NCBI GenBank assembly: GCA_021775575.1 | Contig: JAJFHO010000015.1 | Location: 1 to 51,003 of the forward strand | From: Hyphomicrobiales bacterium | GTDB taxonomy: Bacteria > Pseudomonadota > Alphaproteobacteria > Rhizobiales > Methyloligellaceae | DNA length: 51,003 nt | Direction of reading: 5' to 3' | Shown: in pieces, positions 1 through 32,392 of the stretch | How the letters are laid out: every line of letters starts with the position of its first letter | Position numbering within the stretch: position 1 is the first letter of the stretch | Notes under the pieces: model-generated | The model's database searches: none | The model's input: the letters and a program-made list of their open reading frames with translations, nothing else | Told to the model about the DNA's origin: nothing | Made by a program: the position numbers and the translations under genes

Positions 1-355
1 GGTTGCGATCAATGTCGCGGTGGAGCAACTCGACCAGAAGCCATGCCTCGACCTGAGCCGGGGACCGGTCATGCATCTCGAGCTGATGGGTGACCCGTTC
101 GCCTTCTTCCTTGAACTGGAGCACCATTTCCGGCAGCCGCAATTCCAGAACCAGGCCGGGGGCGATTTCCTGTGTTACCAGCGCATGACCGTCCGCTTCC
201 CAGCCCAGGCTGGCATGGGTATCATCGGCCGCCGGCTCTATATAACTGCGTGCCGTCCGTGCCAGCCACTGAGCGCCATTATGGGCAAGATGGCGCGCCT
301 TTCCTAATTCGCGCGGGTGAATATCGCCCACCGGTTGCCAGTCAATCGAAGTCAT
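1..355 (-). CDS. Hypothetical protein, C-terminus cut by window edge
   Basis: An open frame starts at ATG 355 and runs off the left edge, giving 118 codons that begin MTSIDWQPVGDIHPREL. A good ribosome binding site (GAGGAGAG) lies about 8 bases upstream. The visible part is soluble, with no membrane segment or signal peptide, and mixes acidic and His-rich stretches (HLAHNGAQWLARTAR near residue 22). I do not recognise the family. An open frame on the other strand at 20-307 has no ribosome binding site and is taken as its shadow. It points the same way as the OsmC-like gene that starts at 1018, so the two may be co-transcribed. Coding is supported by the binding site and codon pattern; function is unknown. 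Confidence 0.6.
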   Translation of the reverse strand, partial: MTSIDWQPVGDIHPRELGKARHLAHNGAQWLARTARSYIEPAADDTHASLGWEADGHALVTQEIAPGLVLELRLPEMVLQFKEEGERVTHQLEMHDRSPAQVEAWLLVELLHRDIDRN

Positions 356-430
356 CGCAATGCTCTCCTCGCAATAATGTCAACAGCTCCGGCCTACCTT
401 GAGAGAGGCGGCCCGCCTGGGAAAATAAAT

Positions 431-1018
431 TCACTTCCGCTCGTTATCCACTCGCGCCATCTCCAGCGCGACCGGAACATGCCGAACGAGATCGTCAAGG
501 ATCGGACAGTGCGCATCGACGACCTGCTGCAGCTTCTCAATTTTTGCGTCGCTTGCGCCGCTGTCGATATGGACGGTGCCTTTTATGGACTGAAAGCCGG
601 CCGGCACTGCTTCGCCGGTGCCGAGAAACCCGTTCAGATCCTGGGTTCCCTCGAGTTCCACCGAAACACCGCGCAGATCGACATCCATGGCGTCCGCATA
701 TAGCCGCCAGGTCATTTCCTGGCAGGCGGCAAGGGCGGCCAGCAACAGCTCGCTGGGCTTCGGTCCGGCATTGGATCCGCCAAAGCCGGGGGGCTGATCG
801 GATGTGATCTCGAAATCCCTGATGCGAATCCGGCTGCGGAAGCCGGATTGGCTTTCGCTCGAGATACGCACCTTGATCGGGTTTACCGATGTGCCATCCT
901 CCAGCGCGGCGCGGGTTCTTTCATAGAGCGGCTTCATCGACCCGGCGGCGGAACGGTCCTGCTCTTTTGCCCCGGCCCCGGTATCGGCGCGCGTATTATC
1001 CAGTTTTTCATGTTCCAT
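431..1018 (-). CDS. OsmC/Ohr family protein
   Basis: OsmC-fold proteins are thiol-dependent peroxidases or related small-molecule binding proteins. The 195-residue product shows the family pattern: a Gly/Pro-rich turn GPKPSELLLAALAAC with a cysteine near residue 99 at the start of the long central helix, and a second cysteine near 171 in VDAHCPILDDL, matching the two active-site cysteines of the family. The frame stays open 15 codons further upstream to 1063, but the ATG at 1018 is preferred because the extra residues (MAERQSPKRLTRCYF) look non-conserved. Residues 1-45 are a polar, probably disordered extension. It sits upstream of the unknown gene at the left edge. Whether it acts on organic hydroperoxides cannot be told from sequence. 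Confidence 0.82.
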   Translation of the reverse strand: MEHEKLDNTRADTGAGAKEQDRSAAGSMKPLYERTRAALEDGTSVNPIKVRISSESQSGFRSRIRIRDFEITSDQPPGFGGSNAGPKPSELLLAALAACQEMTWRLYADAMDVDLRGVSVELEGTQDLNGFLGTGEAVPAGFQSIKGTVHIDSGASDAKIEKLQQVVDAHCPILDDLVRHVPVALEMARVDNERK

Positions 1019-1206
1019 GAAATAGCATCTCGTCAATCGCTTTGGGCTTTGTCTCTCGGCCATCGCCCCGCAAAAAAGCTCGGAGACGGCGCAGTCGCCA
1101 ATGCTAGCGCCACCGGCGCAAATTCAGAAAGGCTGATCAACGACCTTACTAGTATGATACACCCGGAACAAAGCGCTATTCGATAAACCATATCCCTGAA
1201 AAGACG

Positions 1207-1947
1207 ATGCCTATTGACTGGACACAGCTTCTTGCCCTGGGGGCCATCGCATTGGTTGCGGCGGTTGTGCGCGGCTATTCGGGGTTCGGTTTTTCGGCCA
1301 TCGTGATTGCCGGCGCTTCACTGTTTATCGCGCCGGCTGCTCTCGTCCCGGCGCTGTTCATGCTCGAGATTGTCGCCAGCATCCATATGCTGCCGGGGGT
1401 GCGCCACCAGATCGACTATCCGAATTTCTGGCCGATGGCCGCAGCGTGTCTTGTCGGGTTGCCCGCCGGCCAGTTTTTCCTCGTCCATCTGCCGGCGGAC
1501 ACGATACGTATTTTTCTGTCGCTTGCGATCCTGCTGTCGACGGCGCTGCTCTGGCGTGGCTATAGTTTTGGAGCCGGGCTGACCCGCCCGCTCGCCGGCG
1601 CAACTGGCTTTGTGATCGGATTTGGCAGTGGCATGGCCTCTGTCGGCGGGCTCATGGCGATGGTCGTCTTCTTGGGCATCAACTACCCGGCAGCGCAAAC
1701 CCGCGCCATGTTCGTCGCCATTTTCCTGGTCATGTATATCTATGGCGTCGGCGTTTCCGCCCTCAACGGCCTGATTACCGAGACAACATTCTGGATCGCG
1801 CTGGCGATGCTGTTGCCTCTGTTCGCCGGCATTCTTCTCGGCCAAAAACAATATCTCTCCGCCACCCAGGAGAGTTTCCGGAAATTCGGTTTTGTCCTGC
1901 TTGCGGTGCTGGCATCGATTGGTATCGCGCGCGTTGTGCTGAGCTAG
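1207..1947 (+). CDS. TauE/SafE family sulfite/organosulfonate-type permease
   Basis: A 246-residue polytopic inner-membrane protein with about eight hydrophobic segments in two similar halves, as in the TauE/SafE (DUF81) family. The family signature is visible in both halves: RGYSGFGFSAIVIAGASLF near residue 23 and GFGSGMASVGGLMAMVVFL near 140. Members are thought to export sulfite, sulfoacetate or other small anions, but most substrates are unproven. The ATG at 1207 starts directly before the first membrane segment. The gene converges on folC, 25 bases away, and has no functional partner nearby, so the substrate cannot be inferred from context. Confidence 0.85.
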   Translation: MPIDWTQLLALGAIALVAAVVRGYSGFGFSAIVIAGASLFIAPAALVPALFMLEIVASIHMLPGVRHQIDYPNFWPMAAACLVGLPAGQFFLVHLPADTIRIFLSLAILLSTALLWRGYSFGAGLTRPLAGATGFVIGFGSGMASVGGLMAMVVFLGINYPAAQTRAMFVAIFLVMYIYGVGVSALNGLITETTFWIALAMLLPLFAGILLGQKQYLSATQESFRKFGFVLLAVLASIGIARVVLS

Positions 1948-1972
1948 AACCCTTTCGGGCCTTATCCGGCGA

Positions 1973-3301
1973 TCAAGCCGCCGTCGCCGCATCCTGCAGG
2001 CGCAACACGTCACCAGCCAGATACAGTGAGCCGCAGATCAGCACGCGAACCGGCTCGCTGGCGAAATCGCGGCTCAGCGCGAGCGCCTCGTTCACATTTT
2101 CAGCCGATGTTGCGTTGAGCCCCTGCTGCCGCGCGATGGCTGCAAGCTGCTCGCGATCATGCCCGGTCTCGCGCCCGGGTATCGGCACGGTCACGACCCA
2201 TTCCGCCAGGCCCGCGAAGGGCGCGAAAAAACCGCCCGCATCCTTGGTTTCCATCATGCCGCAGATCAGATGCAGAGGGCGCGGCACCATCTCCTCCAGT
2301 TCGGCCATGGAGCGGGCGAGCGCTTCCCCGGCGGCCGGGTTGTGGCCGCCGTCGAGCAGGAGTTCGGTGCCTGGAGCGATATGAGCGTCGAGCGCGCCGC
2401 CATTCAGCCGCTGCAGCCGCGCCGGCCAGGTGGCGCTTAAAAGCCCGCCTGCAAGGGCGGTTTCGCTGGCGCGCGCTCCCAGCAACGCATACGCCGCCGC
2501 TATCGCCGCACCGGCGTTGTCGATCTGATGACGGCCGAGGAGCCGCGGCAGCGGCAAATCGACCAGCGCCTCGCCGGTTTGGAAGACCAGCCGTCCATGC
2601 TGCTCAAAGGCGTCCCAGTCGCTGCCCTGCACGATTAGCGGCGCCCCGACGCTCTCCGCCTTGTCCTCGATTGCGTCCAGCGCCTCGCGGTCCTGCCGCG
2701 CGACGATGCAGGGCACTCCCGGTTTGAGAATGCCCGCCTTCTCGCCCGCGATTTCGCGCAACGTGTCGCCGAGATAATGGCTATGGTCGAGTGATACCGG
2801 CATGATGATCGTCAGCGCGGGCCGGTCGATGACGTTGGTCGCGTCAAGCCGTCCGCCAAGCCCCGTTTCCAGCAGAAGATAGTCCGCCTGATGCTCCGCA
2901 TAGGCCAGAAACGCGGCCGCGGTGGTGATTTCAAAAAAGGTTATAGGTTCCCCGGCATTGGCCTCTTCGACGCGCAACAGAAGCTCGGTGAGCAACGGTT
3001 CGGAGATATGGCGCGTGCCGGAGGGGCCTGCGAGCGAAATCCGCTCGTTAAAGGTAATGAGATGCGGCGAGGTAAAGACATGCGCGCTCTTGTTCAGGGA
3101 TTCGATAATCGCCTTGAGAAAGGCAATCACCGATCCTTTGCCGTTGGTCCCGGAAACATGCACCGTCGGCGGCAATCTGTCCTGCGGCCGGCCGAGGGCT
3201 TCGAGCAGCCGCTCGACGCGGTCGAGTTCCAGAGAAATCTCCTCCGGGTACAGTTTTTCCAGCCGGCGCAATATCCCGGCGCTGCCTTGTTCGATTGTCA
3301 T
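1973..3301 (-). CDS. folC: Bifunctional folylpolyglutamate/dihydrofolate synthase
   Basis: FolC adds glutamate to dihydropteroate and then extends the polyglutamate tail of folates, using ATP, in the cytosol. The 442-residue length is normal. The P-loop VSGTNGKGSV is at residues 49-58, the Mur-ligase type motif LLLETGLGGRLDATNV at 142-157, and SLDHSHYLGDT at 170-180. The C-terminal Mur-like domain contains LLLDGGHNPAAGEAL. It lies 29 bases downstream of accD on the same strand, and accD-folC after trpFBA is a common alphaproteobacterial arrangement. Polyglutamylated folates also serve tetrahydrofolate-linked C1 metabolism, which fits a methylotroph, but this gene is universal. Confidence 0.95.
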   Translation of the reverse strand: MTIEQGSAGILRRLEKLYPEEISLELDRVERLLEALGRPQDRLPPTVHVSGTNGKGSVIAFLKAIIESLNKSAHVFTSPHLITFNERISLAGPSGTRHISEPLLTELLLRVEEANAGEPITFFEITTAAAFLAYAEHQADYLLLETGLGGRLDATNVIDRPALTIIMPVSLDHSHYLGDTLREIAGEKAGILKPGVPCIVARQDREALDAIEDKAESVGAPLIVQGSDWDAFEQHGRLVFQTGEALVDLPLPRLLGRHQIDNAGAAIAAAYALLGARASETALAGGLLSATWPARLQRLNGGALDAHIAPGTELLLDGGHNPAAGEALARSMAELEEMVPRPLHLICGMMETKDAGGFFAPFAGLAEWVVTVPIPGRETGHDREQLAAIARQQGLNATSAENVNEALALSRDFASEPVRVLICGSLYLAGDVLRLQDAATAA

Positions 3302-3330
3302 CTTTTTTGCTTTGCTGGCGTCCTGGAAGG

Positions 3331-4377
3331 TCAGGAGGCGCTGGAAGGAGAGGGTTGCTCGTCCGCCGCTGCGTTCTCGTCGGGACCGGCGGCGGCGGCG
3401 TCCGCGTCATCGCCCTCATTTCGGCGCAGCGCGTCCTGTTCCGCCTCGAGCCCGGGGGTATCGGCTGTGTCCAGCGCTTCGTCCGCGCCCTCATCGGGGC
3501 CATCGGTCATGGCCACCTTTTTCATCCGCTTGCTCATCAGCATCGAGCAGATCCGGCTGAGCGTCTCGCGCAGGCGATGGCGGTGCACAACGATATCGAC
3601 CATGCCGTGCTCAAGCAGATATTCGGAACGCTGAAAGCCTTCGGGCAGCTTCTCCCGAATGGTTTGCTCGATAACGCGCGGACCCGCAAAACCGATCAGC
3701 GCGCCGGGCTCGGCGATGTGCACGTCGCCCAGCATCGCATAAGACGCGGTGACGCCACCGGTGGTGGGGTGGGTGAGAACGACGATATAGGGCAGACCCG
3801 CGTCGCGCAGGTCCTGCACGGCAACCGTCGTGCGCGGCATCTGCATGAGCGACATGATCCCCTCCTGCATGCGCGCGCCGCCCGACGCGGCGAACATGAC
3901 GAAGGGGGTCTTGCGCCGTACCGCGGTGCGCATGGCGGTAATGATCGCCTCGCCGGCAGCCATTCCGAGCGAGCCGCCCATGAAGGAGAAATCCTGCACC
4001 GCGGCAACCACATCAAGGCCGTCCAGCGTGCCGGTGGCGGCGAGGATCGCGTCCTGCATGTCGGTCTTGGAGCGGGCGTCCTTGAGCCGGTCGGTGTAGC
4101 GTTTCTCGTCGCGGAATTTGAGCGGATCGCTTGCCACCTCGGGAAGGGTTATCGCCTCGTATTTTCCATCGTCGAAGAAGAAGCCGAGACGCGCCTTCGC
4201 CGTCATGCGCATATGATAGTCGCTGCCCGGCACGACGAACTGGTTCGCCTCCAGATCCTTGTGGTAAATCATCTGCCCCGACTCGGGGCATTTGACCCAG
4301 AGATTGTCCGGCGTCTCGCGCTTCGGATTGAGAATCCGCTGAATCTTGGGGCGGACGATGTTGTTGATCCAGTTCAC
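3331..4377 (-). CDS. accD: Acetyl-CoA carboxylase carboxyltransferase subunit beta
   Basis: AccD pairs with AccA to move the carboxyl group from biotinyl-AccB to acetyl-CoA, the first step of fatty acid synthesis. The 348-residue protein has the crotonase-like core: [12 protein letters not shown] near 133, [16 protein letters not shown] near 164, and [22 protein letters not shown] near 204. The start codon is GTG. In E. coli the N-terminus has a four-cysteine zinc ribbon; here only one cysteine (near residue 30, WVKCPESGQ) remains, a loss I recall from Rhizobium AccD as well. The last 60 residues are an acidic, Ala/Asp/Pro-rich tail, longer than usual and probably disordered. It lies between trpA and folC. 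Confidence 0.95.
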
Positions 4378-4428
4378 GGGCGTCTCGCTTTGCTTCCTTC
4401 GCGTATAAAGTCTGGCCGCGACTTGCGG

Positions 4429-5264
4429 CTATTTCACGGCGGCGCTCTGGGGCTCGCGCAGGGCGGCGGCAAGCCTTTCGACAAGCCCGGCAACCTTTTC
4501 CGTGGTTCCCCCGGCGCCCTTGCCGTCGCCATCCAGATTGTCCCGAATAATCTCGACCAGAGCGGATCCGACGACGACACCGTCGGCGCCGTCCGCGATG
4601 GTGCGCGCCTGCTCCGGCGTCTTCACGCCAAAACCGACCGCGACCGGCAAATCCGTTTGGCCCTTGATCCGCGCCACCTGGGCATGTACTTCGCTGGCGT
4701 CCGGCGCCTTGGTGCCGGTGATGCCCGCGATCGAAACATAATAGACAAAGCCCGATGTATTGCGCAGCACGGCGGGCAGGCGCTTTGCATCGGTCGTCGG
4801 CGTGGCCAGGCGGATAAAATTCAGTCCCGCCGCGAGCGCCGGAATGCACAATTCGTCATCCTCCTCCGGCGGCACGTCCACGACAATGAGCCCGTCCACT
4901 CCGGCCTCGACGCAATCCTTGATGAAGGCGTCGACGGGATAAACATAGATCGGATTATAATAACCCATCAGCACCAGCGGCGTGTCCTGATCGCCGGCGC
5001 GGAACTCGCGCACCATCGCAAGCGTCTTCTTCATGGTCTGCCCGGCCTTGAGCGCGCGTTGCGACGAGGCCTGGATGGCCGGGCCGTCGGCCATCGGGTC
5101 GGAGAAGGGCATCCCCATCTCGATAACGTCGGCGCCGGCTCTGGGCAGCGCCTTGAGGAGCTGAAGCGACGTGTCATAGTCCGGGTCGCCGGCGGTCGTG
5201 AAGGTGACGAGCCCCGCGCGGCCTTCAGCCTTCAGCGCCGCGAAGCGCTTGTCGATACGGGTGG

Positions 5265-5268
<4 letters not shown>
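4429..5268 (-). CDS. trpA: Tryptophan synthase alpha subunit
   Basis: TrpA cleaves indole-3-glycerol phosphate to indole and glyceraldehyde 3-phosphate and passes indole through a tunnel to TrpB. The 279-residue TIM barrel has the catalytic Glu50 and Asp61 in [18 protein letters not shown], plus the phosphate-binding [11 protein letters not shown] and [15 protein letters not shown] motifs. The start at 5268 ([13 protein letters not shown]) is chosen because its ATG overlaps the trpB stop as ATGA, typical of translational coupling. The frame stays open upstream inside trpB, but that stretch is an Arg-rich shadow. It is followed by accD 51 bases downstream. Confidence 0.96.
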
Positions 5269-6500
<1,232 letters not shown>

Positions 6501-6513
6501 CGTCTGTAACTGC

Positions 6514-7164
6514 TTACTTCTTTGCCTTTGCCGCCGCGATGAAACGCCGGATCAATGCGGGGTCCTTCTCGCCCGGCGCGCGTTCGACCCCTGAGGATAC
6601 GTCCACCACGCCGGCGCCCGTCAATTCGGCCGCGGTCCGCACGTTATCAGGATCGAGGCCGCCCGAAAGCATGAATTTACCGCTCTTCTTAACACCGGCC
6701 AGGGTTTGCCAGTCAAATGGAACGCCGTTTCCGCCGGGAAGCGCTAGAGCCTCGCCTTCCGGCGCCTTGGCGTCGTAGAGAATGATATCGGCGGCGGCGC
6801 GATATTCCTCGCCGGCCTCGACATCGTCACGCGTCGCGACCTTGATCGCCTTCATTACCGGGCGCCCGGTCCGCTCGCGGATTTCCGCCACCCGTTCGGG
6901 CGGCTCGCTGCCATGCAGCTGGATCATGTCCGGGTTCACGGCCTGCGACACCGCATCGATCTGCGAATCGTCCGGGTCGACGAGCAACGCCACCGACAGC
7001 GCCCGCCCGCGCGCCCGCGCCGCCAGTTTCTGCGCGGTCTCGATGTCGACATTGCGCGGGCTCGGGCCATAGAAGACGAGGCCGATATAGACAGCGCCCG
7101 CGTCAAGCGCGGCATCGAGGGCCTGCATGCTTCGCAAGCCGCATATCTTGACCTTAACGCTCAT
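6514..7164 (-). CDS. trpF: Phosphoribosylanthranilate isomerase
   Basis: TrpF carries out the Amadori rearrangement of phosphoribosylanthranilate to CdRP in tryptophan synthesis. The 216-residue TIM barrel starts [12 protein letters not shown], with the catalytic cysteine at residue 8. The general acid Asp of the family lies in the central [10 protein letters not shown] stretch, and the substrate-phosphate motifs [10 protein letters not shown] and VDVSSGVE are present. It opens the trpF-trpB-trpA run and is preceded by about 95 noncoding bases after the lapA-like gene. No trp leader peptide with clustered Trp codons was seen upstream. Confidence 0.95.
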
Positions 7165-22798: not shown

Positions 22799-24868
22799 TT
22801 ACGTCGGTTGGTCTGAATAGCCAAAGGCTTCGATGAAGGGCTGCAGTTCGCCGAGAACGGGTTCGATCTCCCTTTGATATCTTTTCCAGCGATATTTGGC
22901 GCGCTGATAGATCGGCTCCGTGACCGACTGGTAACTCGGCGTATTGATTACGCCTCTGGCTTTCGCATGTTCGATATGCCCAAGGACCGCCTCGTCCCAG
23001 CCGACGCCGAGAAACTCCAGCAGGCCACGAACTTCCGTGTCGAAGTCGCCCACCAGCGCCTCATACTTCACCATGTGGAATTTCACCGGTAACAATTCAG
23101 TGCAGTTTTGCCACAAACCCATGACCCGCGCATAGCAGTGAGCGGCGTCTTCAAGGGTGAAGAAATTCGCCATTGCGTCGTTGATTTTATAAGCCTGCAT
23201 GAAATTGCTGAGTATGACGTCGCAGGGGTGGCGCATCGCCAGAATGATTCCGGCATTGGGGAACAGGCGCAGTATCAACGGGATATGTCGGATATTGAGA
23301 GGGTATTTATCGACCAGCAATGTGCCGGGCTGGCGCGTGATGCTGCGCTCTACATTGGCGAAATAGCGCATCCGCAAATCACTGACAGCCTCGACGGTGA
23401 GCTCGCCCAATATTGAGGGATAGGCTCCATGAGCCTCCGCGATATGCGCCACGACATGGTCGAGCGCCGCCTGCTCCTCCATGACCTGTATGACCGGGTG
23501 GGCGTCCAGGATCTGGTCGAGCAGCGTCGTTCCCGAGCGCGGAAACCCGACGATGAAGGATGGTGTCTCGCCGGCGTCGTCGCCGGCCCATTGTTTCCAC
23601 TCCCCGCCGGCGCTCAGCGCTTTGCCGATTTCCTCGACCTCTTCCAGGAACGCCGCCTTGCTATACCGCGCCGCGGATTCCGATTGAGCCTGCAGATCGT
23701 TGGCCGCGCGGAAGCAATCGAAGGCTCTGGTGCAATCGCCCTCCCGGTCATGAAGCTTGCCAAGCTCACTGTGAATTTGGGCGCCGATATTGCCGGGCGC
23801 ACCGCGCTTGGCCAATGGCGTCAGGGTTTCGATCGCGCCTTGCCTGTCGCCTTTTCGTTTTTGAATGACAGCCCAGGACAACAGGGCGGCCGGATCGTCC
23901 GGCACGAGTTCGCGCGCGCGCTGCGTATGCTCAAGAGCTTTGTCGAGATCGTTGAGGCGTTCATGCAGCATGCCCAGACTTGCGTGGGACGCCGCAAGGC
24001 CGGGGTCGGCATCGAGCGCGCACTCGAAGGCGGCGGCGGCATCTTCAAACGCGTCGAGCTCGATGAGAGCCGTACCAAGGTTATGGTGCGCCAGCGCGAA
24101 TCCGGGGTTGATTTTCACGGCCAGCGCCAAGCTGGCGGCGGCTTCCTCCAGCCTGCCGAGGCCGGTCAAGACCCGGCCCAGATTGCAGAGCGCCTCGACA
24201 TGCGATGGCATGATCTTCACCGCCGCCCGGTAGGCGGCAACCGCCGCTTCGCTCTCGCCAGCCGCCTGCAGTACGTTGGCGAGACCGAAATGTCCCTCCG
24301 CATGGTCCGGCTTGACCTTGATCGACTGACGGTAGGCGGCGATCGCCTCCTCGTTCCTGCCAAGTTCCAGCAGAGCGTTGCCCAGATTGCTGTGAATGTC
24401 GGGCTGAAGCGGCATCAGCTTCAGGGCCTGCCGGTAGCTCGAAATGGCGCCTTCGGGTTTGCCCATATCCTTGAGCAGGATGCCAAGATTGATGTGCGCT
24501 TCGGCAAAATCCGGTTTGAGTTTTATCGCCTGGCGGTAGCTTGCCGCGGCGCTGCCCAATTTGCCCAAAGCTTTGAAGGTGTTGCCCAGATTGTAGTGCG
24601 CATCGACATAGTCGGGATTGACTTTCAGCGCCTGCCGGTAGCTGGCAATGGCCTTTTTGGGCTTTCCCTGGCCCGATTGCGCCGCGCCGAGCACATTGTA
24701 GGCAACGAGCGTGGCTGGAAATTCCGCGATCAGCCGGCGGGCCCTGGTCTCCGCCTGTTTCAGATTGCCGGCGGCATAGAGCGAGACCAGCTCACGGATA
24801 TCGGCGTCATTTGCCTGGATGCCAGTGTTGAAGCCCGCCCCGGCCCGGGCCGATCTGCCTTTGCGCAT
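22799..24868 (-). CDS. TPR-repeat sulfotransferase family protein
   Basis: A 689-residue two-part protein. About residues 25-390 are some ten tetratricopeptide repeats with the recurring pattern AHINLGILLKDMGKPEGAIS. The C-terminal 250 residues form a sulfotransferase domain whose PAPS 5'-phosphosulfate loop is GFPRSGTTLLDQIL at 441-454. A second PAPS-contact region is plausibly LAMRHPCDVILSNF. There is no signal peptide, so it should act in the cytosol. The acceptor is unknown; TPR-sulfotransferases are commonly thought to modify peptides or glycans. The gene converges on the NDUFA9-like gene and is followed upstream by uppP on the same strand. Confidence 0.88.
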   Translation of the reverse strand: MRKGRSARAGAGFNTGIQANDADIRELVSLYAAGNLKQAETRARRLIAEFPATLVAYNVLGAAQSGQGKPKKAIASYRQALKVNPDYVDAHYNLGNTFKALGKLGSAAASYRQAIKLKPDFAEAHINLGILLKDMGKPEGAISSYRQALKLMPLQPDIHSNLGNALLELGRNEEAIAAYRQSIKVKPDHAEGHFGLANVLQAAGESEAAVAAYRAAVKIMPSHVEALCNLGRVLTGLGRLEEAAASLALAVKINPGFALAHHNLGTALIELDAFEDAAAAFECALDADPGLAASHASLGMLHERLNDLDKALEHTQRARELVPDDPAALLSWAVIQKRKGDRQGAIETLTPLAKRGAPGNIGAQIHSELGKLHDREGDCTRAFDCFRAANDLQAQSESAARYSKAAFLEEVEEIGKALSAGGEWKQWAGDDAGETPSFIVGFPRSGTTLLDQILDAHPVIQVMEEQAALDHVVAHIAEAHGAYPSILGELTVEAVSDLRMRYFANVERSITRQPGTLLVDKYPLNIRHIPLILRLFPNAGIILAMRHPCDVILSNFMQAYKINDAMANFFTLEDAAHCYARVMGLWQNCTELLPVKFHMVKYEALVGDFDTEVRGLLEFLGVGWDEAVLGHIEHAKARGVINTPSYQSVTEPIYQRAKYRWKRYQREIEPVLGELQPFIEAFGYSDQPT

Positions 24869-29233: not shown

Positions 29234-32200
29234 TCAGTACACCCTCAGGGTCGTATCCTTTCGGCCGAAAAGGGCAGGTTTCTGGCTGCCGCCGGTGGCG
29301 CGCTTCACCGCGGCGCCGACCTGCCGGGAGACGAAGGGAAGCAGCTCGCCGCCCGTCACCGCGCCGTCATTGTTGCCCTCGCCGGTCGTGTCGGCAAGAC
29401 CGCGCAGGCCTGCCACCAGCGCATCGGTAAAAGCGCTGCGCGGGCGCTTCGGGTCCGCGAAAGCAGGTTCAGTCCCGGTTGCCGCGGTCATCACGACCCA
29501 GCCCGCGGGCATGAGTTTGCCGAGCGGACGGATCACCGGATAGGCGATGACCGATTTGGCTGCCGGCGGGGAGCCCTTCGTCGGCTGAGCGCCAAATTTT
29601 CCGGCAAAGGACGTATCGAGATAGACGTGCAGGCGTTTCACGCCGAGCACGGCCAGATTGTAATACAGGACCGACAGCCGGTAACCGGTCTCGATCGGTT
29701 TCTTTGGATCGGCGTCCCTGGGCAGAAGCACGACGTCCTTGCCGTCGTCCACCGGCATCGCACGGCCGGAATAGTAGATGATGAGTTCCGACGCCGGCGC
29801 GCTGGCAAGCGCCCTCTGCAGGCGTCCGGCGGGCGCCCCCTGTTTGCCAAGCAGGGCAATGTAATCCTTCAGCCGGCCATTGCGCAGCGGAATGATCCGC
29901 TTGCCGGACAGCAGCATATCGTCTTTGAGGAATTTCACGAATGCGGCGGCGCCCCCGATGGCGTGACGGCTGTTGGGTATCGCCTTGCTCGAATAGCGGG
30001 CGCTGGCGATGACGACCGCAAGCGGGCGCTGCGTCTCCAGCAGCTTCTTGTAGTCGCCGACAGGATCGGCCGGGGCCTTGGTCTCTGGCTTGCCGGGCGC
30101 CGGAGGCTTCGGTGGTGTTCCCGTGCCGGGCGGTGGCGGCGCCGGTTGCCCGCTTCCCGGCGGGGGCGGCGGTGTTCCGGTATCGGGCGGGGGCGGAGGC
30201 GTGCCGGTATCCGGCGGCTGTTGGTCCTCGGCAGGAGGAGGTGAGCCGTCTGGCGGTTGCTCCCCGGCAGGAGGAGGTGTGCCCTCTGGCGGTTGCTTGC
30301 CCTCCGCTGGTGGCTGTTCACCTTCAGCAGGGGGTTGCTCGCCCCCGGCGGGTGGGCCGTCCGGCGGGAGTTCAATCTCTTCTGTTGGAGCCGGCGGTGG
30401 CTCAGGTGCATGCGGCGCATCCGGCCCCATAACGTCGCCGCAATAGGCAGGGGGCTTGAACTGAACATATCCCTCGCAGTGATCCCTCAACAGCGCGTTA
30501 CACTCGTCCTCGCTACGCCCGGGCTGGGATTCCATGCCCGGAGCTGCTCTGCCGGCCATGCAATCGGCAACCACTTCTTCATAAGGCAAAACTCCTTGTT
30601 CCAGACACGAGCCGTTTGTCGAATAGGTCTTGTTCCCCCCGTGGTCCTGGCAGTCACGGCAATTACCACTCTGGAAGCCATGTCCCTGTCCTTCGGGACA
30701 TGTGAAATCCAGACATTGAGCCCCTGTCACAGGTGTGAAGTAATAATCCTGGCCTTCTGGACAAGGATTGCCGCAGCTTCCGTCATCAAGCACGGCGCCT
30801 GACAATGGATTGCATTCGCCTGTGGCCGTGCAGATACCGTTAACCGCAGAATATCCCTGCGGACAAATCGGATGGCAGCGCCCGTTTATCGACAAGAGAC
30901 CTTCAGGGCAGCTATCAACGCATATACCACCTTCGGTGACAAACGAGCCTTCAGAGCATTGAGGAACGCAACTGTCACCCTGCCGAACCAGTCCGTCGGG
31001 GCAGGTGGCAAGGCACTGCCCATTTACATTTTCATGATCTGATCCGCAATTGAGTGTGCATTGTCCATTCAGCTCCGGAGCGTCACTGGTGCATTCACTT
31101 GCTACGAGACAATTGATACCATCGGCTCTGAACTGACCCTCAGGGCAGTTCTCCACGCACTGGCCCTCGCTGACGCTGCCACCGTAGTTAACGCATCCGC
31201 TTGCCCAGACACACCTTTTCCCGCCCAGATTGACCATTCCTTCAGGACAGCTGTCCGGACAGCATGAGCCACCATAAAAAATACATTTGCCGACGAACCC
31301 TAGATAGGGGATTGGGCATTGCTCGACGCACGCGCCGTTCAGCTCGAATTGCCCCTCCGGACAGCTCGCGGCACAGCTGCCGTCTTCCAGCGTGACCTGG
31401 CCGCCGGGACAGACCAGGGGCGGGTTCGGCGTTGGCGGCGGCGGAGCAGGCGGTGCCGCTGGTGGAATTGGTGTATCACCGCCGGGTGGACCGGGCTTTA
31501 GCGGGCTGTCCGGTGGTTGGCGAACACTGCCGCCGGGGCGAACAGTCTGGCACTGCGACAAATTCGGATTCTGCGCGCAGATGCTTGGGACCAGTCCAGC
31601 CCCCTCGGGCGGTCCGGTCAGGTCCGGTTGGGTTAACTTGCCGCAACCGGGATATTTCGGGTTGGCAGAGCAAATCTTGTCGCTCGCCGGCGGTGGCGTA
31701 TTCTCCGGCGGCGAGGGTTGTTCGCCGTCACCGCATTTCGGGCTCGCCGGGTTCGCCTTGCAAAAGGCAGCATTTTCCAGCTCCTGCTTGTCGCTGGGTC
31801 TGGTTTCGGGCGGAGCTTCCTTGGCGGGGGGCGCTTTTTCCTTCGTGACATCAGTGGGGACCGGGACAGTTTTCTGTTCAGGCGAAACTTTCTTCTTTGC
31901 GGGCGATGGCGATGCTTTTTTCACAGGAGGTGGTGATGTTTTCTTCGCAGGCGGTGCGGCTTTCTTCTTCACAGGTGGCGGCGCGGCCTTCTTCCTTGCC
32001 GGCGGCGGTGCGGACTTCTTTATCGTGCGCGGTGGTGCGGCTTTCTTCTTCGCAAGCGGTGGAGTGGCCTTCTTCCTCGAACTGGTCGGCGATGATTTCT
32101 TTTTCGAATCTTTCGATCTCTGGGTGAGGCGTATCAGCTTCTGGACACGCGCCAGCGCGCGGCGCTGGATCAGAGAGTCCTGGGCTGTGAGACCGGCAGT

Positions 32201-32392
32201 TTGCGGCGGAGCCGGCTGCGAAGGCTCGCCGGCTAGCGTCGGCTGGCTGCGTTGCGTGGCCAATAATGCCGCTGCGATAACCACATAAAATACAACAGCT
32301 AACGCATACCATCTCGCCATGCAGGACCGGGTCCTCGACGCCATTCTCCCCCCAAACGGTTCGGGTTGAATTCCCGAAACCCTTTTAGACAT
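29234..32392 (-). CDS. Membrane-anchored Cys-rich protein with caspase-like (C14) pseudoprotease domain
   Basis: A 1052-residue protein of unusual build. Residues 25-46 (ARWYALAVVFYVVIAAALLA) form one membrane anchor, so the rest is probably periplasmic. About 92-195 is a Lys/Pro/Ala tract with repeated KKKAAPP units. At 211-220, 241-250 and 272-281 are three C-x2-NP-x4-C units (CKANPASPKC, CSANPKYPGC, CAQNPNLSQC). About 328-650 is a cysteine-rich region with repeated CPEGQF-like units resembling EGF-like modules, and about 655-778 is a Pro-rich linker. From 785 it reads like a caspase-fold domain: LAVVIASARYSSKAIPNS, then YYSGRAM (873-879) and HVYLDTSFAG (922-931). Active family members have His in YSGHG and Cys in D-x-C; here they are Arg877 and Ser928, so it is probably inactive. 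ATG 32392 follows GGGGAG. Confidence 0.82.
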   Translation of the reverse strand: MSKRVSGIQPEPFGGRMASRTRSCMARWYALAVVFYVVIAAALLATQRSQPTLAGEPSQPAPPQTAGLTAQDSLIQRRALARVQKLIRLTQRSKDSKKKSSPTSSRKKATPPLAKKKAAPPRTIKKSAPPPARKKAAPPPVKKKAAPPAKKTSPPPVKKASPSPAKKKVSPEQKTVPVPTDVTKEKAPPAKEAPPETRPSDKQELENAAFCKANPASPKCGDGEQPSPPENTPPPASDKICSANPKYPGCGKLTQPDLTGPPEGAGLVPSICAQNPNLSQCQTVRPGGSVRQPPDSPLKPGPPGGDTPIPPAAPPAPPPPTPNPPLVCPGGQVTLEDGSCAASCPEGQFELNGACVEQCPIPYLGFVGKCIFYGGSCCPDSCPEGMVNLGGKRCVWASGCVNYGGSVSEGQCVENCPEGQFRADGINCLVASECTSDAPELNGQCTLNCGSDHENVNGQCLATCPDGLVRQGDSCVPQCSEGSFVTEGGICVDSCPEGLLSINGRCHPICPQGYSAVNGICTATGECNPLSGAVLDDGSCGNPCPEGQDYYFTPVTGAQCLDFTCPEGQGHGFQSGNCRDCQDHGGNKTYSTNGSCLEQGVLPYEEVVADCMAGRAAPGMESQPGRSEDECNALLRDHCEGYVQFKPPAYCGDVMGPDAPHAPEPPPAPTEEIELPPDGPPAGGEQPPAEGEQPPAEGKQPPEGTPPPAGEQPPDGSPPPAEDQQPPDTGTPPPPPDTGTPPPPPGSGQPAPPPPGTGTPPKPPAPGKPETKAPADPVGDYKKLLETQRPLAVVIASARYSSKAIPNSRHAIGGAAAFVKFLKDDMLLSGKRIIPLRNGRLKDYIALLGKQGAPAGRLQRALASAPASELIIYYSGRAMPVDDGKDVVLLPRDADPKKPIETGYRLSVLYYNLAVLGVKRLHVYLDTSFAGKFGAQPTKGSPPAAKSVIAYPVIRPLGKLMPAGWVVMTAATGTEPAFADPKRPRSAFTDALVAGLRGLADTTGEGNNDGAVTGGELLPFVSRQVGAAVKRATGGSQKPALFGRKDTTLRVY

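Follow-up and report, generated by a model that had tools for sequence, protein, structure and literature searches.

The protein encoded at positions 29234–32392 of the window (the whole analyzed stretch of DNA, 51,003 nucleotides) is rather likely to be an exported pseudo-orthocaspase that serves as a non-catalytic binder or regulator. Its ORF lies on the minus strand, has an intact frame and starts with ATG (1052 aa). Alternative starts at Met17 or Met25 are possible, the former aligning with the ATG-start Met of a second copy found in the same genome. The features of the gene are as follows.

29234..32392 (-): whole gene, 1052 aa (ORF and translation)
32258..32311 (-): hydrophobic segment, residues 28–45, signal peptide or membrane anchor (sequence)
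31865..32110 (-): Lys/Pro/Ala-rich tract, residues 95–176, K 28%, P 23%, A 16% (composition)
30398..31417 (-): Cys-rich furin-like region, residues 326–665, 38 Cys, CPEG-type units repeated (Pfam, composition)
30038..30397 (-): Pro-rich linker, residues 666–785, without Cys (sequence composition)
29237..30037 (-): predicted pseudo-caspase domain, residues 786–1052, 0 Cys (NCBIfam, AlphaFold model, Foldseek, VIA-align)
29762..29764 (-): Arg877 at the position of the catalytic His (alignment of relatives)
29615..29617 (-): Asp926, retained acid two residues before the lost Cys (domain rows)
29609..29611 (-): Ser928 at the position of the catalytic Cys (alignment of relatives)

The earlier note on this sequence had proposed a caspase plan for the C-terminal domain, and structure prediction together with a fold search bore this out. 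The AlphaFold2 model of the domain, built from an alignment of 23 rows of relatives with a mean column identity of 53%, had a mean pLDDT of 91 and a pTM of 0.92. According to the Foldseek analysis, 98 PDB entries matched it at E ≤ 0.001, and the best 50 of the 98 matches were all caspase, paracaspase, or metacaspase entries. The best solved structural matches were MALT1 and caspases (Z 21–22); the alignment with MALT1 in VIA-align gave Z 22.4 over 214 residues, with an rmsd of 2.7 and 14% identity. The model indicates that residues 786–1052 have a caspase fold. As for sequence profiles, NCBIfam lists a single model for the protein, the caspase model NF047832, which matched residues 792–1024 (E 8e-11, 41.9 bits) far under the curated cut-off of 140, a value reached by neither of the scores obtained (41.9 and 46.5 bits). 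No Pfam caspase domain was found in the protein at E 0.1. With regard to caspases (peptidase C14), the domain has the fold and lacks the His-Cys dyad.

The substituted residues, R877 in IIYYSGRAMP and S928 in VYLDTSFAGK, had been numbered correctly, and both align with the dyad positions, Arg877 replacing the catalytic His and Ser928 the catalytic Cys. Since the domain contains no Cys and has His only at positions 810 and 922, the dyad is not located elsewhere in it, a possibility that the earlier note had raised; having no Cys, the domain cannot be a cysteine protease. The proposed pseudoenzyme, with a caspase fold and both dyad residues lost, is supported by the model, the alignment, and the rows of the window clade. 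In this clade, the two positions are occupied by R/S in the window protein, R/S in the copy on contig C121 of the same genome, R/A in G023 and G024:C39, and Q/S in G024:C60. Homologues of the clade thus share the losses, both dyad residues being gone in 5/5 clade rows. A caspase-type domain with a substituted dyad defines a pseudo-orthocaspase, and the window domain, for which proteolytic inactivity is predicted, has this composition.

Among the 53 domain rows compared, 17 carry His and Cys, 27 keep His without Cys, and nine are without both. The matched domain segment contains no Cys in 36/36 Cys-less rows and one (15 rows) or two (2 rows) in the His-Cys rows. An acidic residue two positions before the Cys site is present throughout: in 36/36 Cys-less rows (32 Glu, 4 Asp) and in 17/17 His-Cys rows (15 Asp, 2 Glu). 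We take this residue to be the S1-pocket acid in active relatives (metacaspases, MALT1). Since the dyad is lost yet this acid is kept, the chemistry, judging by sequence, is gone, yet the presumed recognition pocket survives in part. In addition, comparison of the window domain with the C121 copy gave a dN/dS of 0.12 (260 codons, 27.0 synonymous and 10.0 non-synonymous changes), which does not look like decay.

The Cys-rich region, previously described as EGF-like, scores as furin-like instead: it passes the gathering cut-off of PF00757 (35.7 bits against 26.8, E 1e-8), which is the sole Pfam entry for the window protein, and no EGF family is listed by Pfam for residues 326–665. The 38 Cys of this region suggest an oxidising compartment. 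The membrane anchor of the earlier note was confirmed as a hydrophobic segment only, since residues 28–45 may be a cleaved signal peptide rather than an anchor; AxA-like cleavage sites were seen by eye in relatives L070 and L071. The Lys/Pro/Ala tract and the Cys-less Pro-rich linker were found as described. The predicted architecture, which joins an export segment, these two parts, the furin-like region and the pseudo-caspase, is unusual.

Parts of an apparent second copy were found on two other contigs of the genome (G000).

L073 (G000:C121) 4610–5389: second copy, caspase part (sequence match)
L171 (G000:C8) 469–3009: second copy, N-terminal part (sequence match)

Contig C121 ends within the caspase domain (protein 97% identical, DNA 95%), and contig C8 ends within the corresponding N-terminal part (847 aa, open-ended). 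The C8 part resembles the window protein in the first 60 columns (42/60 alike) and in the Pro-rich linker block (51/60), whereas in the central Cys-rich blocks only 15–18 of 60 columns are alike. In the simplest reading, the two parts appear to belong to one second gene, split by the assembly, that shares the ends of the window gene but has another Cys-rich rod; a strain mixture is another possible source of this copy (contamination estimate 4.45%). The conserved ends and diversified middle suggest that outward contacts vary while the head that they feed is common to both copies. The C121 caspase part faces polysaccharide-synthesis-like genes (L073 399–4509), which by eye encode a membrane protein with a glycosyltransferase look and an HlyD/Alg44-like protein.

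A relative of the domain is present in 24/30 genomes of the host family, while the N-terminal half, searched with a partial query, was found in 4/30 (G000, G019, G023, and weakly G024, E 2.6e-4). Two of these copies look broken: that of G019 has in-frame stops within the domain match, and that of G023 is split over two frames. The window-clade profile was applied to 397 genomes sampled from the order and 387 sampled from the class; it gave five clade places (G000, G023, G024) at 322–495 bits and none other above 122 bits, with six first-look candidates scored per genome, so that weaker places may be missed. The window clade therefore looks rare and local, and its role would not be general to the family. 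The next matches at class level were mostly dyad-bearing (18 domain rows from L132–L153, 16 His-Cys and two Cys-less, L135 and L153). A single-domain scan of genome contigs gave only one distant Elusimicrobia locus (L033), and a plasmid search with the domain of a sister paralogue (L003, not the window domain) gave four records with <60% identity.

Both full trees set the window clade apart from a 31-row Cys-less clade. Domain pieces <180 aa were left out of the trees and counts, as were rows with a gap at the dyad column in the second tree; matches were dropped at ≤90 bits (first tree, upstream counts) or ≤70 bits (second tree). Two independent losses of Cys are not claimed, because a single origin was not rejected once the long-branched rows L072, L135, and L146 were omitted (p-AU 0.096). 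Among the relatives, L071 (9275–13996) and L028 (3–893) contain an extra lysozyme-inhibitor-like (LprI) C-terminal domain, just under the Pfam cut-off in both (E 8e-4 and 5e-4, respectively), and L031 and L055 contain a peptidoglycan-binding domain above the cut-off; both domains are envelope types.

Most relatives in the family belong to the 31-row clade (some rows are from other families), a sister clade with Glu two positions before the Cys site and with His kept in 27/31 rows and replaced by Leu or Tyr in four. The N-terminal parts of these proteins are Cys-rich and peptidoglycan-binding-like. Upstream of the sister genes, on the same strand and in varying combination, genes encoding class II cytochrome c (PF01322) and diheme cytochrome c (PF00034) were found; the row also includes an intact-dyad caspase, a second pseudo-caspase with DUF4384, or both, as well as a DUF4384-type protein bearing CXXCH motifs. 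Within the family, 23 sister genes were examined with their flanks, one genome each; L110 and L116 start at a contig end and are not assessable, and a 24th genome (G004), where the gene is in two frames with only ~170 bases upstream, was left out. A homologue of a row gene was located upstream in 21/21 assessable genes and carried CXXCH (heme) motifs in 19/21, counts that are not independent, as the genomes share ancestry; in L074 and L113, the DUF4384 protein is represented by a C-terminal fragment alone. The row covers four genera (g1, g3, g4, g6) and is kept although the diheme proteins are only 55–69% identical between genera (five sampled loci). In family f11, a class II cytochrome was found upstream in 3/3 genes, against 0/3 in other families (L080, L084, L085). 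The SSHG-motif branch has none (0/3; L123, L128, L129; 1.6–5.5 kb upstream examined), and no row-gene homologue was detected near the 17 His-Cys ORFs of the 16 loci L086–L101, of which L100 alone has a CXXCH-bearing ORF within 5 kb.

In the genome under study, the row is represented by two loci.

L105 (G000:C250) 2–6876, minus: row in this genome (cytochromes, caspase, Y/S pseudo-caspase with DUF4384)
L074 (G000:C146) 2–2748, plus: probable continuation of the row (sister pseudo-caspase)

Contig C250 encodes class II and diheme cytochromes, an intact-dyad caspase, a Y/S pseudo-caspase, and a cytochrome-like protein whose gene is cut by the contig end. The genome has no second match of the diheme kind. 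The caspase contains the motifs FSYAGHGSQE and VADSCHSGT and matches PF00656 (E 1e-16) and the PADLOC caspase model (E 1e-17). Since C146 starts with a DUF4384-protein-like fragment followed by the sister pseudo-caspase, the row probably continues from C250 to C146. The second pseudo-caspases have lost both residues in 8/8 cases inspected by motif, and seven further loci contain a pair of adjacent pseudo-caspases. The window gene itself is outside the cytochrome c row, which is context and not part of the finding. A caspase-profile search of the genome gave 15 matches at E ≤ 1. In Bradyrhizobium diazoefficiens, the caspase family protein bll3611 is mentioned among the genes changed in an nnrR mutant (PMC6710368).

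The window gene is located between carboxylase genes and the QueG region. The upstream gene on the same strand encodes a biotin-carboxylase-like protein, and the intergenic gap, in which an EACC1 gene was sought, contains no complete ORF of at least 100 aa. Pfam annotation and locus clustering gave no functional lead from the neighbours, and the clustering found none in common with relatives L070 and L071. PADLOC models showed no match with the window protein. A promoter scan yielded about as many hits as chance predicts (1 against 1.2 expected); terminator-like sites numbered 10 against 4.9 expected, 7/10 of them within the window gene on the opposite strand and one on its own strand, 116 bases past the stop. 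At positions 22799–24868 (minus), the window encodes an ordinary TPR-sulfotransferase protein.

If the protein is a binder or regulator, its N-terminal hydrophobic segment would direct export, its Cys-rich region would form disulfides as it folds, either in the periplasm or beyond it, and the Pro-rich linker would keep the C-terminal domain at a distance from the Cys-rich rod. The dead domain would bind either basic-residue peptides, proposed as ligands in view of the retained S1 acid, or active caspases in the same envelope, the latter version being modelled on the binding of caspase-8 by FLIP(L). The intact-dyad caspase encoded in the genome (FSYAGHG / ADSCHSG) was counted in favour of this explanation; the lack of a conserved neighbour of the window gene and the rarity of the clade were counted against it. 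It is rather unlikely that the protein is a FLIP(L)-like regulator whose domain adjusts the activation of an active periplasmic caspase by pairing with it. FLIP(L) shows the same replacement of His by Arg (Arg315/Tyr360, PMC7586951), but the match could be due to chance. In this genome, the gene for an HC caspase adjoins that for a Y/S pseudo-caspase, yet no active caspase is near the window gene; the seven further loci with adjacent pseudo-caspases also speak for pairing, although neither neighbour is active in them.

We also consider it doubtful that the pseudo-caspase does no more than stably cap the Cys-rich rod of a structural surface or envelope protein (adhesin or matrix). The long low-complexity and Cys-rich parts vary between the two copies, which speaks for this reading, and the C-terminal part of the second copy adjoins the polysaccharide-synthesis-like genes recognised by eye; however, the domain is far better conserved between the copies than the rod (97% versus patches), which a mere cap would not need. 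A decaying gene without function, as the broken look of the copies in G019 (internal stops) and G023 (two frames) could suggest, is very unlikely given the intact 1052-codon frame, the dN/dS of 0.12, and the two copies kept. It is hardly credible that the domain is still a protease with Ser928 as a nucleophile: Ser does occupy the Cys position, but it is replaced by Ala in clade members L070 and L071, and the general-base His is Arg. Beyond the binder or regulator explanation, a wider and distinctly improbable scheme may be proposed, in which the window protein would be an arm, facing outward and with a variable stalk, of an envelope caspase system whose core is the cytochrome c / active caspase / pseudo-caspase row of this genome, and the periplasmic redox state, read by c-type cytochromes, would gate the caspase via dead partners. 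If true, the scheme would represent a bacterial counterpart of cytochrome c-controlled caspases.

A 2012 paper reported dyad-less caspase homologues from Alphaproteobacteria and gave the dyad as kept in 75% (PMC3501461), and pseudo-orthocaspases were described in 2019 as abundant in Alphaproteobacteria (582 sequences, 561 from Rhizobiales; PMC6426788). In the parts considered here, both papers leave the role of these numerous proteins open. The probably exported design, the Cys-less domain keeping the presumed S1 acid, the two copies with unlike stalks, and the sister clade linked, in four genera of one family, to genes for c-type cytochromes are handles that make the question of bacterial pseudo-caspase function testable. 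Bacterial pseudo-caspases are already known; the rod architecture is unusual and, like the R/S and R/A dyads and the cytochrome c / pseudo-caspase row, had no recognised description in the open-access literature searched, as judged mainly by titles and abstract starts.

The window domain shares with the bacterial pseudo-orthocaspases a p20-type caspase domain without the His-Cys dyad. The dyads given as common in Rhizobiales are YS, YA, FS, QC, and HA, whereas the window clade has R/S and R/A; the architectures described include TPR, trypsin, DUF4384, or no identifiable domain, with no mention of a Cys-rich rod in the consulted parts of that paper (PMC6426788). From the EACC1-type caspases of NF047832, as outlined in PMC7159879, the window domain is separated by its score far under the cut-off, and an EACC1 partner was not seen among upstream ORFs of at least 100 aa. 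The pseudo-caspases of the sister row come from the same bacterial family and likewise have a Cys-less domain and a Cys-rich N-terminus, in their case also peptidoglycan-binding-like; they differ in the mostly kept His (27/31), in Glu two positions before the Cys site, and in forming a separate clade, although a common origin was not rejected (AU p 0.096). As for human FLIP(L), the parallel is suggestive only: it is also a dead caspase domain with the catalytic His changed to Arg, but according to the consulted parts of PMC7586951 its Cys is replaced by Tyr and not Ser, and it has death-effector domains and forms heterodimers with caspase-8.
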